Virus record (IMG/VR): IMGVR_UViG_3300031957_001581
Coordinates: 1-20,901 of that record
Length of the DNA: 20,901 nt
Strand: one strand, 5' to 3'
DNA from: a virus
The translations under genes were made by a program, and so were the position numbers. Shown here piece by piece: positions 4,199 to 20,901 of this stretch. The number at the start of each line of letters is the position of its first letter. Within the stretch, counting starts at the first letter, position 1. The notes under the pieces are model-generated. The model had not been told where the DNA came from. It worked only from the letters and a program-made list of their open reading frames with translations, and did not search any database.

Positions 4199-4552
4199 AT
4201 GGCAGTTGCGTTAGGAACACATTTAATAGTAGAAGTCCCAAAATTATCTAAGAAGTCTAAGGGGGGAATTATTCTCTCTGAAGACACATTAAACAGAGAA
4301 ACCCAAGCATTAAATGTAGGTAAGATTAAATCAATGGGGGAACATTGTTTCTCTAATTACCAAATTAAACCTAATGTTGGCGATTTAGTATTCTTTATTG
4401 CCTATGCTGGAGACAGAATTCCTACTACAAAAGACCATAACATAAGACTGATTTATGATGAACATTGTAGGGGAATAGTAGAACCTGGGGATTTGGACGG
4501 TATGGAAATCGATTTTGAACAGGACTTAGAGAAATTAGCTGCTAAATCATAA
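4199..4552 (+). CDS. GroES-like (Cpn10) co-chaperonin
   Basis: Protein of 117 aa resembling the GroES/Cpn10 family, the lid that caps GroEL during folding. Matches to GroES in order: an N-terminal strand with LIVEVPK; the mobile-loop motif GGIIL at 22-26 (GGIVL in bacterial GroES, the hydrophobic tripeptide that docks on GroEL); a VGKI strand at 40-43; VGDLVFF at 60-66 (compare VGDIVIF); and IRLIYDEHCRGIVE at 82-95, matching the final GroES strands. About 22 extra C-terminal residues are acidic. E. coli GroES is 97 aa and phage T4 gp31, which replaces GroES for capsid folding, is 111 aa. Its place directly upstream of scaffold and coat suggests the same job. GAGG lies 6 nt before the ATG. Confidence 0.85.
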   Translation: MAVALGTHLIVEVPKLSKKSKGGIILSEDTLNRETQALNVGKIKSMGEHCFSNYQIKPNVGDLVFFIAYAGDRIPTTKDHNIRLIYDEHCRGIVEPGDLDGMEIDFEQDLEKLAAKS

Positions 4553-7601: not shown

Positions 7602-8555
7602 ATGGGTATGTCAAATTTCCCAAATGGCTTTCTGGGTGGTGTGGTTGTAAGAGGTATGCCTCTTCTTCAATTACATCCTGGTAAAGTCGTATGGGTAAAC
7701 AATTCAAGCGTAAAAGCTGACGGTGCAATTGCAGGTAGTGATAGTAATAGCGGGGATATGAGACACCCCTTAGCTACTATTGATGCCGCTATTGGTAAGT
7801 GTGTAGCGGGTAGGGGCGATATTATCGCTGTTATGCCTGGCCATTCAGAAAACCTGACAGCTTCGAACGTTATTACAGCTGACGTGGCAGGTGTTGCTAT
7901 TGTGGGCTTGGGTGTTGGATCTCTAATGCCTAAATTACAATACGACCATGCTAGTGCTTTAGTGACAGTGTCTGCGGATAACGTATCACTAGTTAACTTG
8001 CGCTTTACTGCATCTGTTACAGCTGTTGTAAATGCTGTTAGTGTAGCTGATGGTGCTGACCACTGTACAATCTCTGGCTGCGTTTTTGACGTAGACTTAG
8101 AAGGTACTGATGAGTTCAATGATGCTATTCAGCTAAATGATGCTAGTAATCAAGCCGTCATCGAAGGTAACACTATCGATATGGGTATTGCTGGTGCTGT
8201 TTCTGCTATTGCGTTTGTTAAAGATACAGATAAAACAGTAGTTAGAAAGAATGTTATCAGGGGAGACTACTCTACTGCTAATATTAGAGGTGCTACCACA
8301 TTATCTACTAGACTTCTAATTGAGAATAACTTATTAGAAAATGGTATAGGTGGCAACTTAGGTACAGAACCTGCTATCGAGCTTCTAACAGGTACTACGG
8401 GTACTATTAGACGGAACGATATCGTCTGTAACTTAGCAACTAAAGCAGCTGCAATTGTAGCTGATACAGCTTTATTGTTTGAAAATTACTACAATGAAGA
8501 TATCAGCAGCGCGGCTACTGGCGGTATTATAGGTACAGCTTCAGCTGACGATTAA
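7602..8555 (+). CDS. Beta-helix (pectate-lyase-like fold) structural protein
   Basis: Protein of 317 aa with the look of a right-handed parallel beta-helix. After a short N-terminal part, residues 44-72 read as a GSDSNSG segment followed by HPLATIDAAIGKC, and VMPGHSE follows at 77-83. From about 88 to 290 there are repeating short strands and turns such as VSLVNLRF, CTISGCVFD, AVIEGNTI, TVVRKNVI, LLIENNLL and GTIRRNDI. This N-terminal pattern is familiar from virion-associated proteins encoded next to capsid genes. No catalytic polysaccharide-lyase residues can be assigned, so a capsid surface or fibre-like role is more likely than an enzyme. AGGAG at 7587-7591 with a 10-nt spacer favours the ATG at 7602 over 7608. 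Confidence 0.75.
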   Translation: MGMSNFPNGFLGGVVVRGMPLLQLHPGKVVWVNNSSVKADGAIAGSDSNSGDMRHPLATIDAAIGKCVAGRGDIIAVMPGHSENLTASNVITADVAGVAIVGLGVGSLMPKLQYDHASALVTVSADNVSLVNLRFTASVTAVVNAVSVADGADHCTISGCVFDVDLEGTDEFNDAIQLNDASNQAVIEGNTIDMGIAGAVSAIAFVKDTDKTVVRKNVIRGDYSTANIRGATTLSTRLLIENNLLENGIGGNLGTEPAIELLTGTTGTIRRNDIVCNLATKAAAIVADTALLFENYYNEDISSAATGGIIGTASADD

Positions 8556-9341: not shown

Positions 9342-10277
9342 ATGAGTACCTCCGGTTCAACTAATTTTAATGTGACTAGGTCTGACATCATAGACCATGC
9401 TTTTAGATTGCTAGCTGTTTATGGTGAGCAGGAATCTGTATCTGCTGAAGACACTGCTATTGCCTCTAGAGCTTTAAACATGATGGTTAAGTCTTGGCAA
9501 GTTCAAGGGCTACACCTTTGGACAGAGACAGAAGCTACTGGAATCCTACAAGCAGATATACCATCCTATACAATATCTTCAACTGCGGGTCACTTTTCCG
9601 AAATTATGGTAGAGACTTCAATCTCTGCTGATGAGGCCAGCGGTCAAACTGTTCTTTCTGTAACTAATACCGATAATATCTCAGCTAATGATTATATAGG
9701 GATTGTTTTAGATGATGAATCGATTCACTGGACCACTGTTGCGTCTAAGACATCTTCTACTGTTACCGTTAATAGTGCTATTACTGATGATGCTACTGCT
9801 GGGAATCGTGTCTTTAGTTACACTTACAAGCTATCCAAACCGATGCATATTAGTGATGTTAGGGTTCGTGATGATGGTGATACTGATTTGACGGTACGTC
9901 GCATCAGTCGCAAAGAATATTATGCTATTCCTAATAAATACTCTACAGGCACTCCAATTGTATGGTATTACGATCCGCAACTATCTGGCGGGTTATTACA
10001 TCTTTGGCCTGCTCCTGAAAGTTCAAATATTAGGGTAAAGATGACTTACCAAAGAACCTTAGAGGATTTAGACTCTGGTGTGGATAATCCCGACTTCCCT
10101 GTTGAGTGGTCTGAGACCTTAGCTTACGGTTTAGCTGTAAGATTGGCTCCTATCTACTCTGCTGAGGATAAGTTACAGGTTGTGGCTCCTATTGCTTCTG
10201 ATTTATTAGAGGGATTGAAAGACTGGGACAATGAGAAAACTTCTTTATTCTTTAGACCAGATACTAGTTGGGGTTAG
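9342..10277 (+). CDS. Head-tail adaptor, P22 gp4-like tail accessory factor
   Basis: Probable head-closure adaptor (311 aa) that binds below the portal. The N-terminal helical part at about residues 8-45 (TRSDIIDHAFRLLAVYG, then AIASRALNMMVKSWQVQGLHLW) is the gp4-type pattern. P22 gp4 is only 166 aa; here a Ser/Thr/Val-rich beta region (about 75-150) seems inserted before the C-terminal part with IVWYYDPQLSGGLLHLWPAP and MTYQRTLEDL. Start choice: AGGGG at 9328-9332 stands 9 nt before the ATG at 9342, whereas an in-frame TTG at 9333 abuts the Shine-Dalgarno and is unlikely. It is followed at once by the gp10-like gene, as in P22. Confidence 0.8.
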   Translation: MSTSGSTNFNVTRSDIIDHAFRLLAVYGEQESVSAEDTAIASRALNMMVKSWQVQGLHLWTETEATGILQADIPSYTISSTAGHFSEIMVETSISADEASGQTVLSVTNTDNISANDYIGIVLDDESIHWTTVASKTSSTVTVNSAITDDATAGNRVFSYTYKLSKPMHISDVRVRDDGDTDLTVRRISRKEYYAIPNKYSTGTPIVWYYDPQLSGGLLHLWPAPESSNIRVKMTYQRTLEDLDSGVDNPDFPVEWSETLAYGLAVRLAPIYSAEDKLQVVAPIASDLLEGLKDWDNEKTSLFFRPDTSWG

Positions 10278-10279
10278 AC

Positions 10280-11743
10280 GTGGAAGCTATCCAACTTTTA
10301 GGACAGTCATTTAGCCCTGAGAATAGGGATGTCTCTTCTCAACGGTTAATTAATATGTACCTAGAGGAAAGTAAAGTCGCAGGAGAACAGCAATGGTCTG
10401 CCTTGCCTATGCCTGGAGCTACTCTTTGGACAGGTCTTGGTGGTACTAATGTTAGAGCTCTTTTGACTCACTTAGGTGTTGTCTATGCTGTAGGCGATGG
10501 TACATTCTACTCGATAACGTCAGCTGGTGTGGCTACATCTCAAGGAACGATAACTAACTCCACAGAACTACCTAGAATTAGTATGGCTGCTATCCTGGAC
10601 GAAATACTAGTCACTGATAGCTTAAACACGTATAGATACAAGATATCTACGGATAACTGGGTAGAAGTTACGGATGCTGACCTGCCTGATGATCCTGAGA
10701 TAGTTATGTCCTTAAACGGTTATTTCATAGCTATTATCCCAGATACCCAGAAATTCTATGTTTCAGACCTTAATGATGGTACTAGCTGGAATGCACTCTT
10801 TTTCGCTTCCGCTGAGACAGACCCAGATAAATTAATTTCAGGGTTTACTTTAAATACTAGGATGTGGCTATTAGGTGAGACCACTTCTGAGATTTGGTAT
10901 AACTCAGGTAACCCTAGCGGTGCTCCTTTTGATAGAGCTGTAGCTGGTGCATTACAAGTAGGTTGTGCTGCTAAGTATTCAGTTGCTACTAGCGGTAACA
11001 TGGCTTTCTGGTTAGGTCAAAATAAGCAAGGCCTCTTAGGGGTTATCGCTGCATCTGAAGGTGATTTCAGAGTTATCTCTACTAGAGCTTTAAATGCAGC
11101 TATTCAACATTATGACACTATTAGTGATGCTATAGGGTTTACACACCAATATGGCTCACACGTGTTCTACTGTATTACTTTCCCTTCAGCGACCGCTGAG
11201 AGGGGATATACATGGGTATATGACCTATCTACGGACCAATGGTCTGAGTGGGAGTCTTTAGATGAAGAAGGTGTTACTACTCCATTTTATAATAGATACT
11301 TAGCTAATTGCTCTTGCTCTATTAACAATAAGACGTTAGTAGGTGATTGGCAGTCAGGTAATATCTATGAGCTTAGCCATAGAGTATACACCGAACGTGG
11401 AAATAACATTAAAAGACAAATAGTTACACCTCACGTCCAGATGGGTAGGGATAGGCTCAATATAGGTGCTTTAGAGGTTAAGTTCGAAGCTGGCGCTATC
11501 GAAGACTCCGAAGACAGTTCTTTAGATGAGCCTACGATAATGTTAGAGATTTCTAAAGATTTAGGCAAGTCTTATGGGAGCGTTCTATCTAGAACTATAG
11601 GAGCTGCTGGTGAGTACCTTAAAAGGACTATTTTCCGTAGGCTAGGTAATGCTAGAAGCTATACCTTTAGGCTTACTATGACTGACCCTGTCCCTTGGAA
11701 GATTACCGGGATGTGGGCAAATATTGTTAGGAGAGGCCGTTAA
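10280..11743 (+). CDS. Packaged DNA stabilisation protein, P22 gp10-like
   Basis: Head-completion protein (487 aa; P22 gp10 is 472 aa) that plugs the portal-adaptor channel and supports the tail. The early pattern of the P22 gp10 family is visible (SSQRLINMYLEES near residue 20, then PMPGATLWTGL), followed by a beta-propeller-like series of short strands with Trp/Tyr-containing turns (MWLLGETTSEIWYNSG, NMAFWLGQNKQG, YTWVYDLSTDQWSEWESL). A GTG at 10280 is preferred: GGGG at 10270-10273 lies 6 nt before it and the peptide then begins directly with EAIQLLGQSF. An in-frame TTG at 10268 has no ribosome-binding site. The GTG is 2 bases beyond the adaptor stop codon. Confidence 0.82.
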   Translation: MEAIQLLGQSFSPENRDVSSQRLINMYLEESKVAGEQQWSALPMPGATLWTGLGGTNVRALLTHLGVVYAVGDGTFYSITSAGVATSQGTITNSTELPRISMAAILDEILVTDSLNTYRYKISTDNWVEVTDADLPDDPEIVMSLNGYFIAIIPDTQKFYVSDLNDGTSWNALFFASAETDPDKLISGFTLNTRMWLLGETTSEIWYNSGNPSGAPFDRAVAGALQVGCAAKYSVATSGNMAFWLGQNKQGLLGVIAASEGDFRVISTRALNAAIQHYDTISDAIGFTHQYGSHVFYCITFPSATAERGYTWVYDLSTDQWSEWESLDEEGVTTPFYNRYLANCSCSINNKTLVGDWQSGNIYELSHRVYTERGNNIKRQIVTPHVQMGRDRLNIGALEVKFEAGAIEDSEDSSLDEPTIMLEISKDLGKSYGSVLSRTIGAAGEYLKRTIFRRLGNARSYTFRLTMTDPVPWKITGMWANIVRRGR

Positions 11744-11829
11744 TGGCTCGTGCCCCCCGCAAGTGTTTATTTATAAATACTGAGGACTTACTCTCGGGCT
11801 TCATATTAATTAGGAGTCTTTCGATATGA
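11743..11829 (+). CDS. 28-codon mini-ORF bridging gp10-like and fibre genes
   Basis: Short ORF (MARAPRKCLFINTEDLLSGF followed by eight more residues) that fills the gap exactly. Its ATG shares a base with the TAA of the preceding gene, AGGAGAGG at 11729-11736 gives it a strong Shine-Dalgarno, and its TGA overlaps the ATG of the fibre gene (ATGA). No homologue is known to me. It could encode a real micro-protein, serve only to carry ribosomes into the fibre gene, or be a remnant of a longer gene. The Shine-Dalgarno also encodes Arg-Arg-Gly-Arg of the upstream protein, so chance is possible. Confidence 0.4.
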   Translation: MARAPRKCLFINTEDLLSGFILIRSLSI

Positions 11830-12422
11830 GAGCCCCGCTGGAAGTCCCTTTCTTTGGTAAGAATGACGAAATGTCTCCTGCTTGGCGAGATTATTTCAAC
11901 CAGAATGAAAGCTACTCCTTTTTAGGTCTAAAGAGATTAAATGCCGACTCTACAGCAACCTTACAGATTCCAGACGCTAGAAAGTATAGCAAGATAGTCT
12001 TTGAGCTTTTCGATGTAGTAAGGAGTACTTCCACTACTGTGCTGTTAAGGACTTCCGCTGACGGTGGGGCTAACGTTGCATCTAGCTCTGGAAACTATAG
12101 ATGGGCTATTGATTACTTAAGAGGCTCCGATGCAGCTTCAACTACCGCTAATAGCTCTAGTACTGGGACTAGTATACAACTTTCTGGAACTAACTCAGCT
12201 AACCCAATTAGTGGTCGTATTGAATTATATAGCGCAGATGCTACTACAACTAAACCTCTTTTTGTGTACGACACTATATGTGCTCAGACTTACCCTGAAA
12301 GAGTTAGGGGCTCAGGTATGAGAGATTCTGCTTCTGCTATTAATGCTGTTCAGTTCTTACCGGGTTCGGGGAATTTCACATCTGGAGCCATTCTAGTGTA
12401 TGGTGTGAAGAGACAAACATGA
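11826..12422 (+). CDS. Short fibre/receptor-binding-type protein
   Basis: Protein of 198 aa. Residues about 1-35 form an N-terminal piece (PLEVPFFGKNDEMSPAWRDY) that may anchor to the tail. The remainder is a beta-rich domain that matches the C-terminal domains of the next two genes: a Y-x-K-IVFELFDVV strand, then LLRTSADGGA, GRIELYSAD, and the closing block INAVQFLPGSGNFTSGAILVYGV, parallel to the IRFYMGTGNISSGTFTLYGVK endings downstream. It lacks the DGGTG shaft repeats. It looks like a minimal fibre with tip but no shaft. AGGAG at 11812-11816 precedes the ATG by 9 nt. It could also serve as a tail plug or needle replacement, as no P22 gp26-like needle is seen; that is speculation. Confidence 0.65.
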   Translation: MRAPLEVPFFGKNDEMSPAWRDYFNQNESYSFLGLKRLNADSTATLQIPDARKYSKIVFELFDVVRSTSTTVLLRTSADGGANVASSSGNYRWAIDYLRGSDAASTTANSSSTGTSIQLSGTNSANPISGRIELYSADATTTKPLFVYDTICAQTYPERVRGSGMRDSASAINAVQFLPGSGNFTSGAILVYGVKRQT

Positions 12423-13690
12423 GCGATATTACTGATAGACAAAATGGCGATGATATCGAAATAGCTCGTCGAGATGTTCGAGAGAGAGTTACTGATATTG
12501 TCTACACTAATTCTGAAGCTGCTGACGGTGAGGTTCTACAGTGGAACTCTACTGCATCTGCTTTTCAGTCTGTAACCCCTAATTCTGCTGGTTTGTATAT
12601 TGAAGGTGGTACTGATTTACCTGTGACTGATGGTGGTACTGGCGCATCTACTGCTTCGGCTGCCCGCACTAATTTAGGTATTGGTACTATAGCTACTCAG
12701 GATGCTAATGCTGTAGCTATAACTGGAGGTACTGTCTCTGGCGTAACACTATCATCTTCTGCTGCTACAATTACTGGAGGTACTGTCTCCGGTGTAACTT
12801 TATCGTCTTCAGCTGCTACAATTACTGGCGGTAGTGTTACCGGGATAACTGACTTAGCTGTTGCTGATGGTGGTACTGGTGTTTCTACATTAACAGGTAT
12901 CGTTAAAGGTAATGGTACGTCTGCATTTAGTGCTGCTTCAGCTGGTACAGACTACTATGCTCCTGGAAGCACAGACGTAGCAGTTGCTGATGGTGGTACT
13001 GGTTTATCTTCAGCTACTGCATATGCAGTTCTATGTGGAGGAACTACTTCGACTGGAGCTTTCCAGTCTATAGCTAGTGTTGGGACGTCAGGGCACGTGT
13101 TAACATCCAACGGTGCTGGGGCGTTGCCGACATTTCAAGCAGCTCCAACATATCCTGGCCAATATTACGATTTGATATCGTCACAAACTGCCTCTAATAG
13201 TGCGCAAATAGATTTTACAAGTTTAAGCAGCTCGTATCAAGATTACATAGTTATATTGACAGACATAGTTCCAGTTTCCGATTCCTATCTTTATTTAAGA
13301 TGTAGTACAGATAACGGGTCTTCCTTTGATTCTACCTCAGATATTTATGAATTAGTTTATAGGTCAGTAGAAGATGGTTCCCAGGCTGCAGGGGGTGTTA
13401 ACGTTAACGCTACTGAAATTAGGCTGAATTATAATAGAGTTCTAGATGCTGGATCCAATTCTAACTACTTTGGAATTGTTAGGATATCTAATCCTTCTCA
13501 ATCCTCTGTATATAAAGAGATATCTTGTATAGGTGCTATGTGTGAGGCTACTGCACCAGTTTACGCAGGAAGTAATAGGACTTCTGGAATATATAAGTCT
13601 ACCACTGCAGTAAACGCTATTAGATTTTATATGGGTACTGGCAACATATCGTCCGGGACTTTCACATTATATGGAGTCAAGAAATCGTGA
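12419..13690 (+). CDS. Tail fibre protein, copy A
   Basis: Fibre protein of 423 aa. The N-terminal part (1-60) is charged and probably attaches to the tail. A shaft region (about 62-240) carries DGGTG motifs at 71, 150 and 191, the familiar GGTGASTASAARTNLGIG fibre repeat, and two identical 17-residue units (100-116 and 117-133) beginning ITGGTVSGV. A C-terminal globular domain (about 248-423) ends in GNISSGTFTLYGVK and probably contacts the receptor. The ATG overlaps the previous stop (ATGA), so translation is likely coupled. Residues about 111-222 are encoded by DNA identical to copy B, while both flanks have diverged. Trimeric assembly is expected from known fibres, not shown here. Confidence 0.82.
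   Translation: MSDITDRQNGDDIEIARRDVRERVTDIVYTNSEAADGEVLQWNSTASAFQSVTPNSAGLYIEGGTDLPVTDGGTGASTASAARTNLGIGTIATQDANAVAITGGTVSGVTLSSSAATITGGTVSGVTLSSSAATITGGSVTGITDLAVADGGTGVSTLTGIVKGNGTSAFSAASAGTDYYAPGSTDVAVADGGTGLSSATAYAVLCGGTTSTGAFQSIASVGTSGHVLTSNGAGALPTFQAAPTYPGQYYDLISSQTASNSAQIDFTSLSSSYQDYIVILTDIVPVSDSYLYLRCSTDNGSSFDSTSDIYELVYRSVEDGSQAAGGVNVNATEIRLNYNRVLDAGSNSNYFGIVRISNPSQSSVYKEISCIGAMCEATAPVYAGSNRTSGIYKSTTAVNAIRFYMGTGNISSGTFTLYGVKKS
12719..12820 (+). repeat. Two tandem 51-bp units in fibre copy A
   Basis: Units 12719-12769 and 12770-12820 each encode the same 17 residues (ITGGTVSGV then TLSSSAAT), and a partial third unit begins at 12821 (ITGGSVTGIT). The two DNA units differ at about 7 positions, all synonymous. 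Loss or gain of one unit would keep the frame and change shaft length. Confidence 0.9.
12750..13083 (+). repeat. 334-bp perfect direct repeat, copy 1
   Basis: Read side by side, 12750-13083 and 14015-14348 are identical base for base at a constant offset of 1265, with no gap. Mismatches appear at once on both sides (12748-12749 and 13084). It covers the shaft of fibre copy A. Identity extends to synonymous positions, so the copies were exchanged or duplicated recently. Confidence 0.93.
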
Positions 13691-14958
13691 CAATAAGCGA
13701 TGATCAGTTAAACAATGAAGTAGATATTCAACAAGACCTTACCAATAGAACTACGACGAATATTATAGTAGATTCTGCTAATTTAGCTAATGGTGACTTC
13801 CTTCAGTATGACTCTACAAGTAGGCAATTTGAACCTAGGACAGCTGCTGAAGCTGGTTTATATGCTAGTGGTGGTACTGACGTAGCTGTAACTGATGGTG
13901 GTACCGGAGCATCTACAGCATCTGAAGCTAGAACTAATCTAGGGTTAGGCACTATTGCTACACAAAATAGCAATAACGTTACTATAACTGGGGGTACTGT
14001 CTCCGGTGTAACTTTATCATCTTCTGCTGCTACAATTACTGGAGGTACTGTCTCCGGTGTAACTTTATCGTCTTCAGCTGCTACAATTACTGGCGGTAGT
14101 GTTACCGGGATAACTGACTTAGCTGTTGCTGATGGTGGTACTGGTGTTTCTACATTAACAGGTATCGTTAAAGGTAATGGTACGTCTGCATTTAGTGCTG
14201 CTTCAGCTGGTACAGACTACTATGCTCCTGGAAGCACAGACGTAGCAGTTGCTGATGGTGGTACTGGTTTATCTTCAGCTACTGCATATGCAGTTCTATG
14301 TGGAGGAACTACTTCGACTGGAGCTTTCCAGTCTATAGCTAGTGTTGGATCTTCTGGGTACGTATTAACTTCTAATGGGGCCGGTGCTTTACCTACCATG
14401 CAGAGCCCTGGAGCAGTAACTAATAAATACGTTTTTATCTCAACTCAGTCTGCTTCCACCAGCGCTCAGATAGATTTCACGGGGCTAGATAATTCGTACC
14501 AAGTCTACTTCGTACAGCTAGATAATATAGTGCCTTCTACAGATAACGTCACTTTAAATATGAGAGTTGGTACTGGAGGGACTCCTACGTATGACACTGG
14601 CTCTAATTATGCTTGGTCTGGTGCAGCTGTTCACACTGCAGGAACTGAAGTGAATGGTGGCTCGTCGTCTGCTACAGAAATGCAAATAGTTCCTACTGGT
14701 TCTAATACTACTAATTTAGGGTCTTCTACTGGAGAAAATCTATCTGGTATAGTATACTTCAGTAACCCTTCTAACTCTTCTTTGTATAAAGTTGCTTCTT
14801 GGAAAGTAGGTGGTTTTTCTGCTGGAGCACTACCTATGTCTTGTGAAGGGTCGGGTACATACAAATCTACTACTGCTGTCACGGCGATAAGATTCTTGAT
14901 GTCTTCTGGGAATATAGCATCTGGTACATTTACATTATATGGAGTCAAAAACTCATGA
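13687..14958 (+). CDS. Tail fibre protein, copy B
   Basis: Second fibre protein of 423 aa, paralogous to copy A and of exactly the same length. It starts at a GTG that overlaps the stop of copy A (GTGA), with no clear separate ribosome-binding site, so translational coupling is likely. DGGTG motifs lie at 70, 149 and 190, and residues about 110-220 are encoded by the perfect repeat shared with copy A. The N-terminal 60 residues and the C-terminal domain (about 245-423, ending GNIASGTFTLYGVK) are recognisably related to copy A but clearly diverged. The pair could form a hetero-fibre or two fibres of different receptor specificity; this is inference. Confidence 0.82.
   Translation: MTISDDQLNNEVDIQQDLTNRTTTNIIVDSANLANGDFLQYDSTSRQFEPRTAAEAGLYASGGTDVAVTDGGTGASTASEARTNLGLGTIATQNSNNVTITGGTVSGVTLSSSAATITGGTVSGVTLSSSAATITGGSVTGITDLAVADGGTGVSTLTGIVKGNGTSAFSAASAGTDYYAPGSTDVAVADGGTGLSSATAYAVLCGGTTSTGAFQSIASVGSSGYVLTSNGAGALPTMQSPGAVTNKYVFISTQSASTSAQIDFTGLDNSYQVYFVQLDNIVPSTDNVTLNMRVGTGGTPTYDTGSNYAWSGAAVHTAGTEVNGGSSSATEMQIVPTGSNTTNLGSSTGENLSGIVYFSNPSNSSLYKVASWKVGGFSAGALPMSCEGSGTYKSTTAVTAIRFLMSSGNIASGTFTLYGVKNS
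13984..14085 (+). repeat. Two tandem 51-bp units in fibre copy B
   Basis: Same 17-residue unit as in copy A, at 13984-14034 and 14035-14085, followed by a partial third. The two units differ at about 4 positions, all synonymous. The second unit and most of the first fall inside the perfect 334-bp repeat. Confidence 0.9.
14015..14348 (+). repeat. 334-bp perfect direct repeat, copy 2
   Basis: Partner of 12750-13083 (offset 1265, no mismatch found by eye). It lies in the shaft region of fibre copy B. Homologous recombination between the two copies would delete 1265 bp and give one in-frame chimeric fibre gene, because both copies lie in the same register of their reading frames. Confidence 0.93.
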
Positions 14959-20458: not shown

Positions 20459-20901
20459 GTGTTAGGTGATATATCTTCTAAGTATGAGTCAGGCAATAAA
20501 GGCTTCGAGGCAATCTCTAACATACCTAACGACCCGGGTGGAGCCTCTTATGGTAAGTACCAACTATCTAGTAAGACTGGCACGCTAACAGCCTTCTTAA
20601 GAGAATTCGACTACGAGAAAGACTTTGAAGGAGCTAAACCTGGAACACCCGAGTTCAATCAGAAATGGGTCTCTAAGGTTAAAGCTGACAAAGACTTCTG
20701 CATAGCCCAATGGCAGTACATACGAAACACTAAGTTCCAACCTATATCTAACCATGCATATAAAGAATTACACTTCCCTAAATGTGCTGCCGTAGATGAG
20801 CTTCTATGGAGCCTCTCAGTACAACATGGCAGATGGGCCGTAATACTCCAAAGAGTGGCGAAGAAAAGTGACCCGCGAGCGATGACGCAGGAAGAAGCGA
20901 T
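20459..20901 (+). CDS. Lysozyme/chitosanase-like virion protein (partial, runs off the end)
   Basis: Open frame of 147 codons with no stop before the window ends. GTG at 20459, 1 base after the preceding TAA, has AGGA at 20447-20450 with an 8-nt spacer; no other start lies between it and the upstream in-frame stop at 20405-20407. The protein begins LGDISSKYESGNKGFEAISN and continues DPGGASYGKYQLSSKTGTLTAF, a pattern I associate with lysozyme-like (chitosanase/muramidase-type) domains of phage proteins. E10 in KYESG is the likely catalytic acid. It probably opens peptidoglycan for DNA entry, given its place after the ejection genes, though a lysis enzyme is also possible. The C-terminal part is outside the window. 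Confidence 0.75.
   Translation, partial: MLGDISSKYESGNKGFEAISNIPNDPGGASYGKYQLSSKTGTLTAFLREFDYEKDFEGAKPGTPEFNQKWVSKVKADKDFCIAQWQYIRNTKFQPISNHAYKELHFPKCAAVDELLWSLSVQHGRWAVILQRVAKKSDPRAMTQEEA

Follow-up and report, generated by a model that had tools for sequence, protein, structure and literature searches.

Here we show that a 334-base-pair (bp) shaft tract shared by two tandem tail fibre genes, g1 and g2, coalesces far more recently than either end of the genes. The pair lies in a metagenomic virus contig, IMG/VR record IMGVR_UViG_3300031957_001581, of which positions 1–20,901 (20,901 bp, called the window) were analysed. g1 and g2 are probably old tandem paralogues, each with a GGTG-type repetitive shaft and a β tip, whose shafts were recently homogenised by homologous recombination. 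A first-pass annotation of the window had described two tandem 423-residue fibre paralogues with a shared core identical even at synonymous sites, and had read them as a natural cassette for exchanging receptor-binding tips; its observation is confirmed, while its interpretation is partly supported.

Positions 12750–13083 and 14015–14348 are identical over all 334 bp, with 0 differences and abrupt ends on both sides. Silent-site divergence was counted from a codon alignment of g1 and g2, in which this core occupies columns 112–221. None of the 83 four-fold sites in the core differ between the two genes, compared with 15 of 31 in the shaft just upstream, 11 of 12 in the linker just downstream and 26 of 40 in the tip (core versus all flanks, Fisher p 1.7e-21). 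At 264 positions the codons of g1 and g2 specify the same residue; 92 of these codon pairs differ, and the longest identical stretch spans 110 codons; when these codons were shuffled 100,000 times, the longest run never exceeded 33 (permutation p <= 1e-5). The linker is the most telling silent-site result: for about 20 residues past the 3′ edge of the core the protein is still ~85% identical, and nearly every synonymous site has changed. The profile of synonymous divergence is block-like, not equal along the gene, and its near-zero tract is bounded by strongly diverged paralogue sequence, as expected of gene conversion. Additionally, the 5′ edge of the identical tract sits within the first 51-bp tandem unit of g1, and the first such unit of g2 resembles a mosaic of g1 units 1 and 2, which suggests that more than one exchange may have taken place in the shaft.

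Histories of the shaft core and of the gene ends

The features concerned are given below; L082 denotes the nearest related genome.

11826–12422, plus strand: g0, 198 amino acids (aa), tip domain phrog_14820 without a shaft, first of three tandem tip-domain genes
12419–13690, plus strand: g1, tail fibre paralogue 1, 423 aa, ATG start, 4-bp overlap with g0
12419–12598, plus strand: N1, N-terminal ~60 codons of g1, 77% aa identity to the L082 fibre
12722–12823, plus strand: two 51-bp tandem units (ITGGTVSGVTLSSSAAT) in g1
12750–13083, plus strand: shaft core copy 1, 334 bp, in g1
13157–13690, plus strand: C1, tip domain of g1 (phrog_14820)
13687–14958, plus strand: g2, tail fibre paralogue 2, 423 aa, GTG start, 4-bp overlap with g1
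13687–13866, plus strand: N2, N-terminal ~60 codons of g2, divergent from both N1 and the L082 fibre
13987–14088, plus strand: the same two 51-bp units (ITGGTVSGVTLSSSAAT) in g2
14015–14348, plus strand: shaft core copy 2, 334 bp, in g2, offset by 1265 from copy 1
14419–14958, plus strand: C2, tip domain of g2, predicted all-β and sandwich-like by AlphaFold2, sister to the L082 tip

Both family similarity and place among the late structural genes assign g1 and g2 to the tail fibres: their N-terminal and shaft part gives weak matches to tail fibre PHROGs (E ~1e-3), and they stand between head-closure (Hc3-type) and ejection-type genes. Each shaft contains three V.DGGTG repeats. N1, presumably the particle-attachment part of g1, shares only ~34–37% aa identity with N2, put at about 30% for codons 1–60, and codons 61–111 are roughly 75–80% identical. 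The first-pass annotation had called the N-terminal 100 codons and the C-terminal tips diverged; this holds strongly for codons 1–60 and only moderately for codons 61–111, and it holds for the middle of the tip, where divergence is greatest, but not for the last part, which is conserved (family D3, 112 nucleotides (nt), 74%).

Relatives of the window were sought through its head-closure, ejection, capsid and fibre genes. The nearest genome, L082, is an IMG/VR contig of 44,457 bp with ~65–79% DNA identity across much of the window, and it is the only one with the whole region, L083 and L084 ending before the fibres. Between its orthologues of g0 (66% aa identity) and of an 83-aa gene that follows g2, L082 encodes a single fibre of 396 aa (9511–10701), which holds one 51-bp unit. 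Over its first 65 residues this fibre shares 77% identity with g1 and 40% with g2, whereas for its tip the figures are 44% with g1 and 66% with g2. Informative sites, at which L082 agrees with only one of g1 and g2, favour g1 by 56:21 in codons 1–60 and g2 by 113:37 in alignment columns 281–428. Likewise, when the two-gene region is searched by blastn in the 44-kb contig, the match shifts from g1 to g2 within the shaft, and no second fibre of the g1/g2 type, nor any other copy of C1 or N2, was found in that contig. Judged by these comparisons, the L082 fibre is the pairing expected from a shaft-to-shaft deletion, an N1-like end joined to a C2-like tip. It is the single-copy chimeric fibre gene that the first-pass annotation had proposed looking for in related genomes, and fits the product that intragenic recombination would leave in a relative.

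The tips and the cores record conflicting histories. A tree built from 39 tip domains joins the tips of g2 and L082 in one clade (support 100/98) and leaves that of g1 outside it, and the trio is itself supported (94/88). The tips of g1 and g2 would be sisters if one gene were a recent duplicate of the other; since g2 groups with L082 instead, the tips parted before the window and L082 split, and recent whole-gene duplication is ruled out, as had been argued from the first. The cores, by contrast, are identical within the window and have diverged from L082 (21 of 45 four-fold sites differ between L082 and the g1 core, plus indels; p 6e-12), so they coalesced after that split. A tract that coalesces after the split between flanks that coalesce before it points to gene conversion or crossover limited to the shaft, as first proposed and as the block-like synonymous profile also indicates.

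Tip domain and its relatives

The C-terminal domain of g0, g1 and g2 matches phrog_14820, a family listed there as of unknown function. An AlphaFold2 model of the g2 tip, built with 73 aligned relatives, is all-β with a predicted local distance difference test score (pLDDT) of 93 and a predicted template modelling score of 0.89, so that the tip is confidently predicted to be a separately folded all-β domain. A search of BFVD with this model gave 141 matches at E <= 0.001, the best with a template modelling score (TM) of 0.93, and some of these are annotated as side tail fibre or tail fiber proteins; a fold search of the PDB with the tip gave no convincing match (TM < 0.4). The position of the tip at the C terminus of a fibre-like protein, together with its predicted fold, suggests that it may bind the host receptor. 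In a single-chain model of full-length g2 based on a 3-row alignment, the shaft has pLDDT < 50 and is undefined.

By iterated profile search, the tip domain family occurs in 87 of the loci fetched, in up to eight tandem genes; as the loci were fetched with tip-bearing queries, this count shows that such arrays exist and not how frequent they are. Arrays of up to eight phrog_14820 tip genes were seen in uncultured phages (L164, L177, L147, L176, L116 and L102), and the genes also occur in marine phages, including the pelagiphages HTVC010P, HTVC019P and HTVC034P. Neighbours within the arrays are at most ~66% identical, which indicates that the arrays are old.

Alternative explanations and the proposed exchange

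Insertion in the window lineage is a version of the favoured account with the polarity reversed, and we regard it as a serious possibility though somewhat short of even likelihood. Here the ancestor would have been L082-like, with one N1-shaft-C2 gene, and the phage of the window would have gained the C1-N2 segment by shaft recombination with a second phage, such as a co-infecting donor or a circular one; the two identical shafts would be the trace of that event. The single gene of L082, the exact flanking of the extra segment by the repeats, and the branching of the g1 tip outside those of g2 and L082, as expected of a C1 acquired from elsewhere, all agree with this. However, the donor shaft must already have equalled that of the recipient, which only moves the question, and the tip tree is accounted for just as well by an ancient tandem pair that was reduced by loss in L082. 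The trinucleotide composition of C1 plus N2 is ordinary (20th percentile) and does not mark the segment as foreign. No donor was found either: among 50,697 phage records searched with the two-gene region, blastn returned only 90-bp shaft-type matches, and an exact 47-bp core pattern had 0 matches in viral contigs.

Several points weigh against the favoured account, the ordinary composition of C1 plus N2 among them. With one relative covering the whole region, parsimony does not distinguish loss of C1-N2 in L082 from its gain in the window. Orthology of the N-termini is judged from an unrooted triplet, outgroup N-termini having been sought and none found. Informative sites in L082 are neutral in columns 61–111 (18:13), 222–245 (11:11) and 246–280 (18:13), so that its switch point is bracketed only to columns ~61–280, wider than the 334-bp core. 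No deletion or duplication product was seen within the population, the analysis covering assembled contigs only.

An assembly artefact, in which differing copies or strains were collapsed into one shaft consensus or two strains were joined, is improbable, though it deserves weight in a metagenomic record whose 334-bp exact repeat exceeds a typical short read. Among 180 loci only one other exact repeat of at least 60 bp was found, measuring 62 bp, which fits assemblies that break or collapse at repeats; for the same reason, the scarcity of long exact repeats in these loci does not amount to true rarity. That 62-bp repeat (L113, 2235 and 2834, spacing 599) lies in a locus with tip-domain genes and is possibly a smaller conversion tract. 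On the other hand, a single genome of the form A-R-B-R-C has a unique path, which makes the order unambiguous; the middle segment is joined on both sides by clean 4-bp overlaps of the operon type (TGA/ATG and TGA/GTG); and the whole region is in frame, with a gene order that fits L082. Both tips and both N-termini are real and diverged, so that two genes or two strains are needed anyway. Consensus collapse would weaken the word identical, but neither the two diverged genes nor the L082 chimera.

A dedicated diversification system, whether a diversity-generating retroelement or an invertase-driven shufflon, is very improbable. Variable tips beside a constant part do resemble the outcome of such systems. 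However, the window contains 0 inverted repeat pairs at a minimum length of 30, and no reverse transcriptase or invertase was identified among the open reading frames scanned in it; the differences span whole domains with indels and are not confined to one localised variable repeat, what is repeated is the entire identical shaft, and the tip tree indicates divergence of the tips by descent. The window thus carries the marks of neither a diversity-generating retroelement nor an invertible cassette. A protein resembling the terminase small subunit gives a marginal match to phrog_125 'DNA invertase' (E 7e-4, 84 residues). Finally, purifying selection on shaft DNA or protein without recombination, for which one could cite the repetitive shaft and the V.DGGTG.ST motif widespread in phage fibres, is refuted by L082, in which the core has been free to change at four-fold sites and by indels, and by the passage from 0/83 to 11/12 four-fold differences into an equally conserved protein.

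In the favoured account of shaft homogenisation by recombination, the two shafts would be kept alike by gene conversion or by exchange with a near-identical co-infecting phage, and recombination between shafts could take place in cis or between co-infecting genomes. The shaft would then act as an in-frame crossover zone. A crossover between the direct-repeat cores would delete the 1265-bp core-C1-N2 unit and leave one N1-core-C2 fibre, as in L082, while the reciprocal product would be a duplication with three genes, the middle one being N2-core-C1; deletion and duplication would both re-pair tips with attachment ends. The computed N1-core-C2 fusion is 424 aa long and in frame, because g1 and g2 read the core in one and the same codon phase (the core ends 665 nt from the start of g1 and 662 nt from that of g2, both 2 mod 3). 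The first-pass annotation had credited the offset of 1265 with keeping frame; 1265 is not a multiple of 3, and equal codon phase gives the same outcome. It had further expected recombination either to delete one gene cleanly or to swap tips. Deletion leaving N1-core-C2 stands, but one crossover cannot swap tips at constant copy number, and to exchange tips while keeping two genes takes either a second event or conversion that extends into the diverged tips.

No recombinase gene was identified among the open reading frames scanned in the 20.9-kb window. A recombination exonuclease of the RecE/λ type is encoded by L082, so an annealing pathway supplied by the phages themselves is plausible in this group; in the window's phage, the corresponding region falls beyond the fragment. 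The pair may serve as a natural cassette for exchanging tips. A stronger version, in which the pair is a maintained, self-renewing tip-exchange cassette whose shafts are kept identical by continual conversion, without a dedicated recombinase or retroelement, seems to us improbable. If it were true, single-fibre (N1-C2) and three-gene variants would arise in every burst, and the fibre complement would vary in a way reversible by recombination.

Genomic setting and known systems

By its gene content, the window represents the late region of a podovirus-like tailed phage. Terminase small and large subunits, portal, major head protein, adaptor and head-closure (Hc3-type) protein are followed by the three tandem genes with a common C-terminal domain, the 83-aa gene and ejection-type proteins. 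Annotated phages are all distant (head-closure protein at most 34% identical), and a search for the host in genome contigs with the head-closure gene gave only distant matches (25–36% identity). Among the head genes is one for a GroES-like co-chaperonin (4199–4552; phrog_3188, E 3e-8). Directly after the major head protein comes a 317-aa protein without a PHROG match (7602–8555), whose repeated short β-like segments, seen by eye only, suggest a β-helix. At 20459–20899, a truncated protein matches a VgrG3-like C-terminal domain (PF21277, E 1e-32) and is probably the cell-wall-acting domain of an ejection protein. Additionally, L082 encodes a second, unrelated repetitive fibre-like protein of 884 aa, far from the fibre locus studied here (L195: 8552–12638, minus strand) and adjoining a glycine-rich 331-aa protein, as well as two ClpP-like proteases (L196: 563–1150 and 6592–7248).

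Recombination inside fibre genes is an accepted route to new host-binding tips, and it is usually inferred by comparison between phages. In the present case both partners are found in a single genome, their shafts perfect copies and their ends diverged, and a related phage carries the chimera that would be expected, which makes the fibre pair a concrete and testable locus for shaft recombination. It also gives a warning about short-read assemblies, in which such pairs may go unseen where contigs break or collapse at identical shafts.

In T-even phages, as Tetart and colleagues reportedly described in 1998 (cited in PMC6027323), the receptor-binding part of the adhesins is exchanged between phages via conserved fibre segments, at motifs in the adhesin genes. 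There too, homologous recombination at conserved segments re-pairs a variable receptor-binding part with a conserved frame; in our case the partners are tandem neighbours within a single genome, with 334 bp of shaft in perfect agreement. In Kuttervirus (Ackermannviridae), a common conserved motif has been proposed as the recombination site between the tailspike paralogues TSP1, TSP3 and TSP4 (PMC8432352). Those phages likewise carry several host-binding proteins per genome, with receptor-binding modules moving between paralogues. However, their tips are alike (91–100%) and their N-termini differ around a 7-residue motif, whereas in g1 and g2 the shaft is identical and both ends differ.

Domain duplications in the T4 gp37 adhesin (Tetart et al. 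1996, J Mol Biol 258:726; cited in PMC9004378) are, as presented in the citing text, also changes of copy number by recombination between fibre-gene repeats, linked to host range; they appear there as small duplications within one gene of laboratory mutants, while ours concern whole tandem genes of an uncultured phage. Podovirus tail fibres show graded mosaicism in an analysis of Sulfitobacter phage PhiGT1 (PMC10386132), in whose available text the C-terminal antireceptor is often replaced and the N-terminus kept, with crossover points along the fibre; the same text treats general exchange between phages and contains no identical intragenomic shaft pair. The phrog_14820 tip-domain genes of marine phages, those of HTVC010P, HTVC019P and HTVC034P included, share the C-terminal β-domain and are often tandem, but array members are typically ~200 aa, without a GGTG shaft or long identical tracts. 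A literature search, from which subscription journals were mostly absent, turned up no description of tandem fibre genes that combine a perfect shaft with diverged ends. Together, these comparisons place the event among a known kind, the reshuffling of fibre tips by recombination, of which a tandem pair with a perfect shaft is a new and clean example.

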